The notes under the pieces were generated by a model, which made no database searches, was not told the DNA's origin, and was given only the letters and a program-made list of their open reading frames with translations. A stretch of DNA of 64,000 bases from Ilumatobacter coccineus YM16-304 (GTDB lineage: Bacteria; Actinomycetota; Acidimicrobiia; Acidimicrobiales; Ilumatobacteraceae), in contig NC_020520.1 of NCBI RefSeq assembly GCF_000348785.1, forward strand, positions 372,001 through 436,000. Direction: 5' to 3'. Numbering within the stretch: position 1 is the first letter of the stretch; every line of letters begins with the position of its first letter. Both the position numbers and the translations under genes were made by a program. Of this stretch, positions 26,944 through 32,974 are shown one piece after another.

Positions 26944-27648
26944 TCAGGCGGCGATCGACTCGGCGAGGACGTGTGAGCGGAGGAGTCGCCGCAACTCGCG
27001 CGACGTGGAGCGGCCGACGCGGCGAGAGGTGAGGAGGCCGGCATCGACCGAGCGGGCGATCGCGGGTTCCCAGGTGAGCGATGCCGACACGGGCGCACCG
27101 ACCGAGGTGGCGATGTCGTGATCGGTGAGCGTGCGCCCCGGCTCGCGTACGACCACGACGCCCGTCGACGACAGCGATCGGCGTGACGCCTCACGCAGCG
27201 CGAGATAGCACGACCTCGTCACCAGCAGTCGTTGATCGCACGCCGCCACGAACTCCTGCGGCAACGGTTGCGTGCCGGCGTCGACGAACACCCGACCACC
27301 CGATCGAGTCGCCCACGATCGGCACCACGACGAGAGTTGCATCCAGCGCGTCGTCGATGCCTCGAGCCGTGCCGCGGCCGAACCAGCGGCGCCGGCGTCG
27401 AGACGCGTCGTCAGCATCGAGGTGGATGTGTTGACCTCGACCATCAGGTCGGACAGATGATCGAGCGGCGCGTCGCTCCCGAGCCAGTCGACGACACCGG
27501 GCCGATCGGTGCCACCGACGCCGAGCGCGGCCGGGAGTTCGTCGTCGAGGTCGACGAGCAGTGTCGGCCCCCGGTGCGCCAGCGCGGTGAGCGCCGTGGT
27601 GACCGTGGTGCCGCTCCCGCCCTTGACGGCGTGGAACATCGTGAGCAT
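26944..27648 (-). CDS. tadZ: TadZ/CpaE-like MinD-family ATPase
   Basis: 234 residues, ATG 27648. A deviant Walker A motif (VKGGSGTTVTTALTAL, residues ~8-23) places it in the ParA/MinD superfamily, and LLVDLDDELPAALGV is the following strand with the acidic residues. CpaE/TadZ proteins position the pilus machine at a cell site. It lacks the N-terminal receiver-like domain of longer CpaE proteins. It is the first gene of the Tad operon. A leftward promoter must lie in the 141-base gap to ahpF, but I see no convincing boxes. Confidence 0.8.
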   Translation of the reverse strand: MLTMFHAVKGGSGTTVTTALTALAHRGPTLLVDLDDELPAALGVGGTDRPGVVDWLGSDAPLDHLSDLMVEVNTSTSMLTTRLDAGAAGSAAARLEASTTRWMQLSSWCRSWATRSGGRVFVDAGTQPLPQEFVAACDQRLLVTRSCYLALREASRRSLSSTGVVVVREPGRTLTDHDIATSVGAPVSASLTWEPAIARSVDAGLLTSRRVGRSTSRELRRLLRSHVLAESIAA

Positions 27649-27789: not shown

Positions 27790-29370
27790 TCAGGCCGGAA
27801 CCGAGGCGTCGGACGTGCGGATCAGGTGGTCGAACGCCGACAGCATCGCTGTGGAACCGGCACCCATCGACACCACGATCTGCTTGAACGGCACCGTGGT
27901 GCAGTCGCCGGCGGCGAACACACCGGGAATCGACGTGGCGCCGTGGCTGTCGATCTCGATCTCGTTGTGCTTCGACAACGCGATCGTGCCGTCGAGCCAC
28001 TCGGTGTTGGGCAGCAGACCGATCTGCACGAAGATGCCTTCGAGTTCGACGGTGTGCTCGGAGTCGTCGTTGCGGTCGCGGTAGACCAGCGAGGTGACCT
28101 TCTTGCCGTCGCCGACGACCTCGGTCGTCATCGCGCTGGTGATGATCGTGACGTTGGGGAGGCTGCGAAGTTTGGCCTGCAGCACTTCGTCGGCGCGCAG
28201 CTGGTGATCGAACTCGATCAACGTGACGTGGTCGACGATGCCGGCCAGGTCGATGGCGGCCTCGACACCCGAGTTGCCGCCGCCGATCACGGCCGTGCGC
28301 TTGCCCTTGTAGAGGGGGCCGTCGCAGTGCGGGCAGTAGGCCACGCCGCGGTTCGCGTACTCGGCCTCGCCGGGCACGTCGATCTTGCGCCACCGGGCAC
28401 CGGTGGCGAGGATGATCGAACGCGACTGCAGCGCGGCGCCGCTCTCGAGGGCGATCGTGTGGAGGCCGCCAGCGCTGTCGGCGGCTTCGAGGCGCTCGGC
28501 GCGCTGCGCGGTGATGACCTCGACGTCGTGGTCGCGGACGTTGGATTCGAGTTCGGCGGCGAGCTTCGGACCTTCGGTGTACGGGTTGGAGATGAGGTTC
28601 TCGATGCCCATCGTGTCGAGGAGCTGACCGCCGAAGCGCTCGGCGACGACGCCGGTGCGCAGACCCTTGCGAGCCGCATACACGGCCGCCGATGATCCGG
28701 CCGGGCCACCGCCGACGATGAGCACGTCGAACGGGTCGAGTTCGTTGATCTTCTCGACCGCACGGTCGGCGCTGCCGGAGTCGAGCATGGCGACGAGTTC
28801 TTCGAGGGTCATGCGGCCCTGTCCGAAGCTCTCACCGTTGCGGAAGACGGTGGGCACGGCCATGACTTCGCGCGCCTCGACTTCGTCTTGGAACGCGGCA
28901 CCGTCGATGGCGACGTGCTCGATGTTGGGGTTGAGGATGCTCATCAGGTTGAGCGCCTGCACCACGTCGGGGCAGTTCTGGCAGCTCTGCGAGAAGAACG
29001 TCTCGAAGCGGTGGGTGCCCTCAATGTTGCGGATCTGGTCGAGCAGCTCGGGGTCGGCGGTGGAGGGGTGGCCGCCCACCTGGAGGAGTGCGAGGACGAG
29101 CGAGGTGAACTCGTGGCCGAGCGGGACACCACCGAAGGTGACCGACACGGCCGGGTCGTCGACGCGGGTGATGCGGAACGACGGGCGACGTTCGTCGTCG
29201 CCATCGGTCCGGGTGTTGATGTCGGAGGACAAGACGTCCAACTCACCGAGGAGCTCGGTGATCTTCGTGCTGGTCGCGCTGTCGTCGAGCGAAGCCACCA
29301 GCTCGATCGGCTGGACGATCTTGGGAAGATGGGCGCGGAGCGCCTCGGTGAGTTGAGCGTCGAGAATCAT
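27790..29370 (-). CDS. ahpF: alkyl hydroperoxide reductase subunit F
   Basis: 526 residues, ATG 29370, full length for the family. AhpF passes electrons from NAD(P)H to AhpC. The N-terminal tandem thioredoxin-like region carries the CQNC redox pair (~residue 128). The FAD loop [17 protein letters not shown] is at ~222, the disulfide centre is [12 protein letters not shown] (~346), and the NAD(P)H loop is [15 protein letters not shown] (~363). The C-terminal [15 protein letters not shown] is typical of the thioredoxin reductase fold. A GGAG sits ahead of the start, and it follows ahpC by 55 bases as one operon. Confidence 0.96.
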
Positions 29371-29425: not shown

Positions 29426-29995
29426 TCAGATCTTGCCGACGAGGTCGAGCGACGGAGCGAGGGTTGCTTCGCCCTCTTCCCACTTGGCCGGGCACACTTC
29501 GTTCGGGTTGGCGCGGACGTACTGGGCGGCCTTGACCTTGCGGAGCAGTTCGGTGGCCGAGCGGCCGATGTTGCCGGCGTTGATCTCGATGACCTGGATC
29601 TTGCCGTCGGGGTCGATGACGAAGGTGCCGCGCTCGGCGAGGCCGTCTTCTTCGATCATGACTTCGAAGTTGCGGGTGATGACGCCGGTCGGGTCGCCGA
29701 TCATGGGGTAGGTGATCTTGTTGATCGTCTCGCTGGCGTCGTGCCACGCCTTGTGCGTGAAGTGCTTGTCGGTCGACACGGCGTACACCTCGACGCCGAG
29801 CTTCTGGAACTCTTCGTAGTTGTCGGCGAGGTCGCCGAGTTCGGTCGGGCAGACGAACGTGAAGTCGGCGGGGTAGAAGAACACGATCGACCACTTGTCG
29901 CGCAGGTCTGCGTCGGAGACGTCGACGAATTCACCGTTGTGGAACGCGGTGGCCGAGAAGGGCTTGACCTCGGTGTTGATCAGGGAAGTGGACAT
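29426..29995 (-). CDS. ahpC: alkyl hydroperoxide reductase subunit C (2-Cys peroxiredoxin)
   Basis: 189 residues from ATG 29995, with GGAG eight bases upstream. It reduces peroxides using a Cys thiol. The peroxidatic Cys is in [12 protein letters not shown] (~residue 47) and the resolving Cys in [11 protein letters not shown] near the C-terminus, both encoded by ordinary Cys codons. The remaining pattern ([44 protein letters not shown]) is the standard AhpC1 signature. It is promoter-proximal to ahpF, and the pair forms a complete hydroperoxide-reducing system. No regulator such as OxyR is adjacent. Confidence 0.97.
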
Positions 29996-30159
29996 GTTGT
30001 AACTCCTGCGTGTTCGGGGTTTTTGGATCACGTTCACCATACGAACCCGAAGGCCTCATCCGGCAGATGACATGCGTCTCTTTCCCGGATTTGTGGCACA
30101 TCTCGTCACCCGCTCGACGAGTGGTGTAGCGAGGTTCGCGAACGACGTGCCGGAGCGGT

Positions 30160-30735: not shown

Positions 30736-31293
30736 ATGCCCAACGCTCTCACTTCCCTGCCGCGCCTCGGTGCCGGTGCCCTCGCCGCCGTGTGCCTGCT
30801 CGGCGTGACCGCGTGCGGACGAGGCGACGACGACTCGGCCTCGGCCGACGCTCCCGTGGCCTCCACGGTCGAGACGGCGGCGCCCACGACCACGCCGGCG
30901 ACGACCGTGCCCGAGACGACGACCACCGTTGCTGCGGTCGTGATCGAGGCAACCGACGAACTCACTGCCTTCGCGAGCGAGCACGGTGCCTTGGTCGCCG
31001 ATTGGTCGGCCCAGCTCGAAGTGTTCGGCGAGCAGGCGGTCGATCACCTCGATGATCTGTCGGCCGCACCGGCGTCGCCAGGCGTTCGCGAGGTCTCCGA
31101 CGAACTGGTCGCAGCGGTCGGTGCCGACGCGACCGACCCGGGGCTGGTGACGCTCCGCGACTTCGCAGCGAGTGCATCCGAGGCGCTCAGACTCGCCGCC
31201 GACGGCGATCACCCCGGCGCCTTCGCCGGTTTCCTCGACCTGCAGACCCAGGCCGACGACCTGACTGCCGTGGTCGACCTCATCACCGGCTGA
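30736..31293 (+). CDS. hypothetical lipoprotein
   Basis: 185 residues from ATG 30736. The signal peptide (LGAGALAAVCLLGVTACG) ends in a lipobox with Cys, so the protein should be anchored outside the membrane. A Thr/Pro/Ala-rich linker of ~40 residues follows. The C-terminal ~120 residues are predicted helical, with regularly spaced acidic and hydrophobic residues (LTAFASEHGALVADWSAQLE, LVTLRDFAASASEALRLA). No known family was recognised. It ends 48 bases before the tRNA-Sec gene. Confidence 0.75.
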   Translation: MPNALTSLPRLGAGALAAVCLLGVTACGRGDDDSASADAPVASTVETAAPTTTPATTVPETTTTVAAVVIEATDELTAFASEHGALVADWSAQLEVFGEQAVDHLDDLSAAPASPGVREVSDELVAAVGADATDPGLVTLRDFAASASEALRLAADGDHPGAFAGFLDLQTQADDLTAVVDLITG

Positions 31294-31341
31294 GTCGCGT
31301 TCGACCGCCGCGCGGCCGGTAGCGTCAGGCCTGCACTACCG

Positions 31342-31437
31342 GGAGGTGTCTGGGTACCTGGTGGGCTCCGCCGCCTTCAAAGCGGTTGGGATGGGCGATC
31401 CCCATCCGGCGGGTTCGATTCCCGTCCACCTCCGCCA
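31342..31437 (+). tRNA. selC: tRNA-Sec (anticodon TCA)
   Basis: A 96-base tRNA gene with encoded CCA. The acceptor arm is long, as in bacterial tRNA-Sec: GGAGGTGT (31342-31349) against CCACCTCC before G-CCA; the eighth pair is a mismatch. The anticodon loop CTTCAAA puts TCA at 31377-31379, the selenocysteine anticodon. A long variable arm (GGATGGG/CCCCATCC around a CGAT loop) and the T-arm GCGGGTTCGATTCCCGT complete it. Only the D-stem pairing is hard to assign by eye. No selA, selB, selD or Sec-containing gene is in the window. Confidence 0.93.
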
Positions 31438-31534
31438 ACATCGTTGTCACGGGCTTGTTCGTCGACGACCCGGTCGCCCCAACGAAGTTCCGCACCAGGT
31501 AAACCCGTGAGGGGCCGGCTGCGTCAATGATGAT

Positions 31535-32974
31535 GTGACCGTGGCGACCGACACCGACTTCGAGGTGCTGTTCAAGGAGCAGTACCCGCGACTGGTCGCG
31601 CTCGGTATCGCGCTGACGAGTAGCGGCGAGGTCGCGAACGATCTTGCTCAGGAGACACTCGCGCGAGCACACGCCAACTGGGAGCATGTCAGCGACACGG
31701 AATCGCCTGCGGCCTGGCTGCGAACGGTCGGCGGTGGACTGCTCAGCTACGGATCGGGCGAGGATGATTCCCGAAGCGTCGACGACATGAGCGTGATCCG
31801 TCCGTTCGGCCAGCCTGTTCGAGCAGCGGTGACGACCGATCGTGTGGCGATCAGTTCGTCGACGGCTGACATCGAGGCATGGCAGCGTGGCGGCGATCGC
31901 CTGATCGACGATCCCCGCATGCGAGCCGCGGCCGAAGCGCTCGACGAGTTCTCGCTCATCGAAGTCCAGGCCTACGTCGTGGATTTCTCGGTGGCGGCGA
32001 GGATCGACGCATCCGCCGTACCCGAGCCGATACCGATCTCCGAGCCGTTCTCGGTGATCGCTGTGGGCACGACCGTCGACGGCGCAGGTGATCTCAGCAC
32101 GGTGATCACGTACGTGTTCGATGACCCAGAGGCGGCAACAGCGATGAGCGACAGTGTCGAACGTGCTTGGCACCAGCCATCGGCACGGGATGCGCTGGCG
32201 CCCGCCACCTTCTACCAGTCGATCGACGTCGAGGCCGTCGGTCGAACGATCGTCGTCACCGCTCCGCTCGACGCGAACACGTCGAGCAGCAAATGGATCG
32301 AGTTTCTCGCCCGCGGAGAGGCGGTCTTCACCCACGCGCCGAGCGAGAACACAGACCCGGCGGAGGTCGATCGCCCCGACGCCACCTGTGCGGCACCGGA
32401 AGTATGTCTTCGGTACTCGATCGAGGAGGGTGACTACGCGGTGCTCATCGCCGAGACCTTCTGCATCAGCATCGGTGAACTTGCAAAAGCGAACGGGTGG
32501 AGCGATGTGAACGTCGATTTCCCCGGTCCTGACAGCACGATCGTGATCCCGTCCTTCGAGTCCCGATCGTCTTGCCCCGACCCGACCGATGGGTTCGTGG
32601 CCTCGTCGCTCGACGCGGCCGGTGGCGTCGAGGGTCCACTCGTGTACTGGAGCGAGCGGCCCGACGGAGAGCGGGAGAGTGAGGCGGCGCTGATCGAGGG
32701 CCTGCTGATGCAGGAAGGCGACTGTCTCTACGTCGGGAGCGACGAGTTTCGCTCGGTCGTGCTCTGGGAGTACGGAACTCGATGGCTCGCCGACGAGGTC
32801 GCGGTCCTGCTGCCCGACGGGTCGACCATCCCGGTCGGGTCGACCATCGACGGCAGGGGCGGCGGGTACCACGCCCCGAGCCAGTTGTCGGCCTTCACCA
32901 CGAGCGATGCCGTCATCGGCCGAGCCGAACAGTGCGCCGGGCCCACAGGAGAGGTCGCCGTCATCCAGTCATGA
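31535..32974 (+). CDS. chimeric protein: ECF sigma region-2 fragment fused to a LysM-like domain protein
   Basis: 479 residues from GTG 31535. Residues ~6-70 are clearly the N-terminus of a SigE-type ECF sigma factor: FEVLFKEQYPRLVALGIALT, then DLAQETLARAHANW and AAWLRTV. The sequence then switches abruptly to GGGLLSYGSG and loses the rest of region 2 and all of region 4. The remainder is acidic, Ser/Thr-rich, and includes a LysM-like segment around residues 290-345 (CLRYSIEEGDYAVLIAETF, then LAKANGW and TIVIPSF). No transmembrane or signal segment connects the parts. A deletion joining two neighbouring genes in frame is the best explanation; function is doubtful. Confidence 0.65.
   Translation: MTVATDTDFEVLFKEQYPRLVALGIALTSSGEVANDLAQETLARAHANWEHVSDTESPAAWLRTVGGGLLSYGSGEDDSRSVDDMSVIRPFGQPVRAAVTTDRVAISSSTADIEAWQRGGDRLIDDPRMRAAAEALDEFSLIEVQAYVVDFSVAARIDASAVPEPIPISEPFSVIAVGTTVDGAGDLSTVITYVFDDPEAATAMSDSVERAWHQPSARDALAPATFYQSIDVEAVGRTIVVTAPLDANTSSSKWIEFLARGEAVFTHAPSENTDPAEVDRPDATCAAPEVCLRYSIEEGDYAVLIAETFCISIGELAKANGWSDVNVDFPGPDSTIVIPSFESRSSCPDPTDGFVASSLDAAGGVEGPLVYWSERPDGERESEAALIEGLLMQEGDCLYVGSDEFRSVVLWEYGTRWLADEVAVLLPDGSTIPVGSTIDGRGGGYHAPSQLSAFTTSDAVIGRAEQCAGPTGEVAVIQS

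Follow-up and report, generated by a model that had tools for sequence, protein, structure and literature searches.

A selenocysteine tRNA gene of Ilumatobacter coccineus YM16-304, its shape across the order and the predicted selenoprotein genes it may serve

Does a lone tRNA gene for selenocysteine (Sec), with no other gene of the pathway around it, belong to a working Sec system, and if so, which proteins would it serve? The question is raised by selC in a 64-kb stretch of Ilumatobacter coccineus YM16-304 DNA (the window; bases 372001–436000 of a 4,830,181-bp, one-contig genome). Under the name Ilumatobacter coccineum, the strain is described as a marine, aerobic actinobacterium whose chromosome is circular and of that length (PMC3910706); in the accessible part of that article, the string 'selen' occurs solely in an author's name in a reference.

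selC and the genes of the selenocysteine pathway

A first-pass annotation of the window had proposed a tRNA-Sec gene, and two kinds of search bore this out. The sole tRNA gene that ARAGORN called across the 64 kb was tRNA-SeC, with anticodon tca (Table 1), and the Rfam family RF01852 matched it at full length (31342–31433) with 66.5 bits and an E-value of 2.4e-11, against a gathering score of 47. Across the whole genome, RF01852 gave 11 matches, of which selC was the sole one above the cut-off, indicating a single copy; the best 8 of the other 10 were ordinary tRNAs according to ARAGORN (four Ser and one each of Cys, Leu, Trp and Gly). The UCA anticodon, CTTCAAA loop, long variable arm and encoded CCA that the annotation had pointed to are all present, and the G that precedes the CCA supplies discriminator G73. 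A sigma-70 consensus scan of positions 31150–31650 found no promoter or terminator pattern around the gene. Judging from sequence, we put the probability that selC is a functional bacterial tRNA-Sec gene at about 0.97.

Table 1 Features of selC and of its neighbourhood, in window positions
Feature	Position	Strand	Basis
selC, tRNA-Sec(UCA), discriminator G, encoded CCA	31342–31437	+	ARAGORN, Rfam RF01852
5′ acceptor strand; nt 1–7 paired, U8 (31349) × C85 (31426) mismatch	31342–31349	+	Alignment
D arm, 6 bp, loop TGGT, one bulged purine (A15, 31356)	31352–31368	+	Alignment
Anticodon TCA in loop CTTCAAA (31375–31381)	31377–31379	+	Sequence, ARAGORN
Long variable arm, 7-bp stem by eye	31389–31407	+	Sequence
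T arm, 5 bp and possible sixth pair G67–C85	31408–31426	+	Alignment
AhpC peroxiredoxin, plain Cys, outside Sec pathway	29426–30040	−	TIGR03137, 337.5 bits (cut-off 272); no stop in match
AhpF	27790–29370	−	TIGR03140, 750.7 bits (cut-off 502.9)
CpaE/TadZ-like gene, weak family match	26944–27648	−	TIGR03815, 28.6 bits (below cut-off 154.45)

The annotation had seen no selA, selB or selD in the window and had placed selC apart from the rest of the pathway. Both statements held in the genome search that it had suggested, which found all three proteins, each above its cut-off. SelA (435 amino acids) scored 413.8 bits against a family-profile cut-off of 267.9, and SelB (599 amino acids) scored 291.1 bits against 242.25, with a match spanning residues 30–394; their genes are adjacent, intact open reading frames near 4.31 Mb. 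SelD, at 2441028–2441951, scored 375.3 bits against an NCBIfam cut-off of 125. On the circular chromosome, selC (0.40 Mb) thus lies approximately 0.9 Mb from selAB and far from selD at 2.44 Mb, a separation that does not weaken the case for tRNA-Sec. A low Sec-model score and a genome lacking SelA and SelB, which the annotation had named as signs of a pseudo-tRNA or relic, were not what we found. Judged by its genes, the Sec pathway is complete in this genome, and selC, which falls in a known family, is part of it.

No neighbour of selC is known to belong to the Sec pathway. Upstream lie AhpF, AhpC, a DUF985 cupin and a putative lipoprotein (the last assigned by eye), and downstream lies a protein with sigma-70 region 2. 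AhpC is intact and has no TGA, in agreement with the earlier remark that it uses plain Cys codons. The CpaE/TadZ-like gene, 3.7 kb from selC, gave tblastn matches in 25 of the 66 selC loci of relatives (31 when the low-complexity filter was switched off). The control, 1.2 Mb of its own genome outside the window and not DNA of the relatives, gave none. The recurrence suggests a long-standing proximity of selC to a pilus-type (tad) locus.

Predicted selenoprotein genes

The annotation had held that the organism probably makes selenoproteins and had proposed a search for in-frame TGA codons. We found such codons in formate dehydrogenase (FdhA), SelD and genes of the AhpC/TSA peroxiredoxin family. 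SelD has one in-frame TGA, read FSHGAGUGCK, in agreement with UxxK, the Sec motif that Table 1 of PMC13188914 gives for this protein. The search for formate dehydrogenase alpha revealed a single TGA at NRTUHAPS, within the FdhA Sec motif UHxP listed in the same table. With the pathway complete, these two sites support the expectation that selenoproteins are made. The 14 genome matches to PF00578 (AhpC/TSA) included four with a TGA at the redox site (WAPYUGC, SSWUGC, HNHULPC and WAPTUSIC), and in-frame TGA codons were found in none of the three genome matches to the DsbA family and none of the four to the thioredoxin family.

Further genes came from scanning by codon usage for TGA codons flanked on both sides by coding frame. 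With fixed thresholds, a first scan listed four candidates; of the six sites known at that stage, it picked up two, and scoring by frame competition picked up five, missing SelD, which was missed again in a 484-kb run. That run covered the window, one further stretch (L021) and twenty 20-kb stretches and gave 33 candidates; a second set of forty more stretches (800 kb) gave 57. By eye, we kept one and three of these, respectively, and the remainder looked like gene junctions or non-coding frames. The genes kept were an arsenate reductase (HNQHUNSS), a UGSC protein, a glutathione peroxidase (NVASAUGLTPQ) and a small CC/Se-like gene. The yield, four genes from 1.2 Mb of stretches, suggests with wide error that further selenoprotein genes remain to be found. 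Within the window, the scan, which was not exhaustive in that it missed SelD, gave four candidates, none with a credible Sec site by eye, and the earlier statement that no Sec-containing gene is visible there holds to that extent.

Taking the family searches together with the scan of part of the genome, we count nine well-supported predicted selenoprotein genes and one weaker candidate. The motifs of the nine are all listed with Sec in the available part of Table 1 of PMC13188914, and the CC/Se-like gene is without the CxxU motif listed there for the CC/Se family. By NCBIfam profile (cut-offs in brackets), UGSC at 168.9 (125) and one WAxxUGC protein at 435.9 (300) joined SelD above the cut-off, as did GSHPx at 128.6 (27), ArsC at 51.9 (24) and AhpC-TSA at 62.0 and 52.7 (26) by Pfam. 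Below the NCBIfam cut-offs were FdhA at 625.7 (666.25), the SelL-related protein at 116.4 (120), a second WAxxUGC protein at 200.7 (300), ArsC at 96.9 (106.05), GPx at 166.8 (270), ResA for the TlpA-UxxC protein at 54.5 (170) and CC/Se at 24.9 (40). The ArsC family search gave one match, which lies downstream of the TGA of its gene and contains no stop. Gene callers that take TGA solely as a stop would cut such genes.

Two of the loci deserve separate description. At L111 (G000:C1:3448000-3462000), formate dehydrogenase alpha looks split into separate open reading frames: the catalytic part with the Sec TGA corresponds to the match at 3455269–3457146 and the N-terminal Fe-S part to the match at 3452613–3452780, which is downstream of the catalytic part in the direction of transcription; we read the TGA at the end of the smaller match as a stop. 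The CC/Se-like gene (L158:12116-12424) is interrupted by its TGA, with a GGUC-loop hairpin 20 nt past that codon, and nearby frames seem to resemble ribosomal proteins L21 and L27.

We then compared hairpins downstream of the ten Sec sites with those downstream of 3,127 control TGA codons, each the stop of an open frame longer than 150 codons, all six frames being considered. A rule set after inspection of the sites (a perfect stem of at least 6 bp that lies 16–26 nt past the TGA and closes a 3–5-nt loop containing G[GT][GT]) took in 7 of the 10 sites, 46 of the 3,127 controls and 115 of 7,200 random positions; these figures are post hoc, as is the outcome without the loop letters (again 7 of 10, against 236 controls). 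SelD, the SelL-related gene and the TlpA-UxxC gene have no hairpin under this post hoc rule. A hairpin energy of −7.5 kcal/mol or lower was reached at 5 of the 10 sites and 426 of the 3,127 controls. The broadest published SECIS range accepted all ten sites but also 2,325 of the controls and thus did not discriminate. Folds of the 45 bases past the Sec codon, compared with codon shuffles at six sites, were unconvincing (z from −2.2 to +0.7), and searching the regions of selAB and selD against Rfam at E-values of up to 1 returned no SECIS family, the one match being to a microRNA family (E = 0.41).

The weak or absent hairpins at SelD, the SelL-related gene and the TlpA-UxxC gene, the several proteins under their NCBIfam cut-offs and the low-scoring CC/Se-like gene without its CxxU would also be expected if selC were a true tRNA-Sec serving only a few proteins, some of the TGA genes being frameshifted or truncated. 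We regard this as unlikely, given that nine sites have an in-frame coding signal both before and after the TGA (the tenth, SelD, was missed by the scan), that the TGA stands at the position of a catalytic Cys in nine, and that the UGSC and WAxxUGC families take their names from Sec, with two members here above their cut-offs. The sites and the pathway genes together make a strong case that the organism reads certain UGA codons as selenocysteine. At least nine predicted selenoprotein genes in an aerobe would exceed the published mark of six for 'selenoprotein-rich' organisms, 78.3% of which are given as anaerobes in the available part of PMC5029168. This number, together with a tRNA shape found across the order, gives the locus added interest.

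Shape of the tRNA and its distribution in the order

We aligned 66 tRNA-Sec sequences arm by arm, including selC of the window and leaving one of 67 out (L073, which has a shorter D arm); the sequences are related and unweighted. The 'extended acceptor arm' of the annotation stood with respect to total length, but pairs 1–7 are standard and the eighth, U8 × C85, is mismatched here and in 64 of the 66 sequences overall. Among the 13 positions of the acceptor–T arm in selC, seven acceptor and five T-stem pairs stand, with U8 × C85 unpaired. A 13-bp arm of 7+6 rather than 8+5 may result from the mismatch, through G67–C85; G and C occupy these two positions in 65 of the 66 sequences, in columns that are almost invariant and hence give no proof of pairing.

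The D-stem carries an extra nucleotide, which is A in 45 sequences, G in 20 and T in one. When this nucleotide is bulged, each of the six D-stem pairs stands in 65 or 66 of the 66 sequences, and four pairs show changes on both sides (one of them through a single sequence). In the unbulged register, by contrast, the four outer pairs form in only 28, 62, 1 and 3 of the 66. Some tRNA-Sec genes of the order differ in other ways. One genome (G091) has two tRNA-Sec genes of different types, on L038 and L068, and the divergent copy, on L038, pairs in the unbulged register, its eighth acceptor pair being standard. In two relatives (L072 and L080), the anticodon loop is CTTCAAC rather than CTTCAAA.

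These features bear on whether selC could be a pseudo-tRNA left behind after loss of the Sec pathway, its D-stem bulge and eighth-pair mismatch being marks of decay. The register of the Rfam match does leave D-stem and acceptor positions unpaired, and selC does lie far from selA, selB and selD. But the three pathway genes are intact, and the relic reading therefore fails; ten genes, nine of them well supported, have an in-frame TGA. Nor are the bulge and U8 × C85 explained by decay, because they are common to nearly all the aligned relatives, and we gave up decay as an account of the D-stem mismatches in view of a bulge that is conserved while the stem around it changes on both sides. We consider a relic extremely improbable.

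A functional tRNA-Sec is also what its distribution points to. Among 148 genomes of the order, our own included, 90 had a match to RF01852 at an E-value of 1e-8, or 87 after removal of three with tRNA-Gly alone according to ARAGORN. ARAGORN checks covered 70 of the 91 RF01852 places in relatives and called 66 tRNA-Sec, three tRNA-Gly and one tRNA-Ser, the last being a second match in G019, which we rejected. selA was present in 88 of the 148 genomes (in 86 above the cut-off) and selD in 91. Both selC and selA occurred in 81 genomes, selC alone in 6, selA alone in 7 and neither in 54 (Fisher P = 1.3e-25, uncorrected for kinship). The best SelD match contained an in-frame TGA in 55 genomes and lacked one in 36, where a few of the matches are fragments that may fall short of the site. 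In six genomes (G019, G031, G046, G124, G137 and G143), selC, selD and selA lie within a few kilobases, and the SelD match is without an in-frame TGA. A search pattern made from the tRNA of this order found at least 119 stretches in named genomes, with Actinomycetota or one of its subgroups in 75 of the 80 titles listed; being built from this order, the pattern is mute on looser variants elsewhere.

SelA is reported to read the D arm of tRNA-Sec (PMC7609411). We therefore propose, tentatively and as a possibility that we would not favour on present odds, that the tRNA-Sec of Acidimicrobiales has a lineage-specific architecture (bulged D-stem and 7+6 arm) to which its own SelA and SelB are adapted, serving a large selenoproteome in aerobes. 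If this were true, the bulge would be an identity element, and the tRNA would be partly orthogonal to the SelA of other bacteria. The order-wide bulge and U8 × C85 mismatch offer natural variants for probing what SelA and SelB require.

Proposed function and comparison with known tRNAs

At the level of sequence, the genome has selC, intact selA, selB and selD and genes with a TGA at a redox or catalytic site, most with SECIS-like hairpins, and the tRNA and pathway genes are co-inherited across the order. Expression, charging and Sec insertion would be as in the known pathway. The selC RNA would be charged with serine by SerRS; SelA would convert the seryl form to Sec-tRNA with selenophosphate from SelD; and SelB would deliver Sec-tRNA to an in-frame UGA marked by a downstream SECIS hairpin. 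SelD is itself a predicted selenoprotein, so that production of the enzyme supplying the pathway would in turn depend on selC.

One could instead imagine a UGA-reading tRNA that carries cysteine, of the selC-star tRNA-Cys kind, or an allo-tRNA, since such tRNAs, which have non-canonical arms and some of which have UCA and read UGA, are known in other bacteria; but those described in the available part of PMC7609411 have 8/4 or 9/3 arms in place of the 13 positions of selC, and the G discriminator, the long variable arm, the co-inheritance of SelA and SelD with selC and the TGA codons at sites typical of Sec enzymes make this reading of selC hardly credible.

As a tRNA-Sec, selC shares with the bacterial family RF01852 the UCA anticodon, CTTCAAA loop, G discriminator, encoded CCA, 13-position acceptor–T arm, long variable arm and TGGT D-loop. 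It differs from the usual bacterial tRNA-Sec in the bulged D-stem purine and in having U8 × C85 for the eighth pair, with a possible 7+6 arm. A D-stem bulge has a precedent in Clostridiales, whose tRNA-Sec is described in the available part of PMC5330540 as bulged at 13a, among tRNAs with a 12-bp acceptor–T stem. By our own numbering, the extra nucleotide of selC is in the same place, 13a, but its acceptor–T arm has 13 positions.
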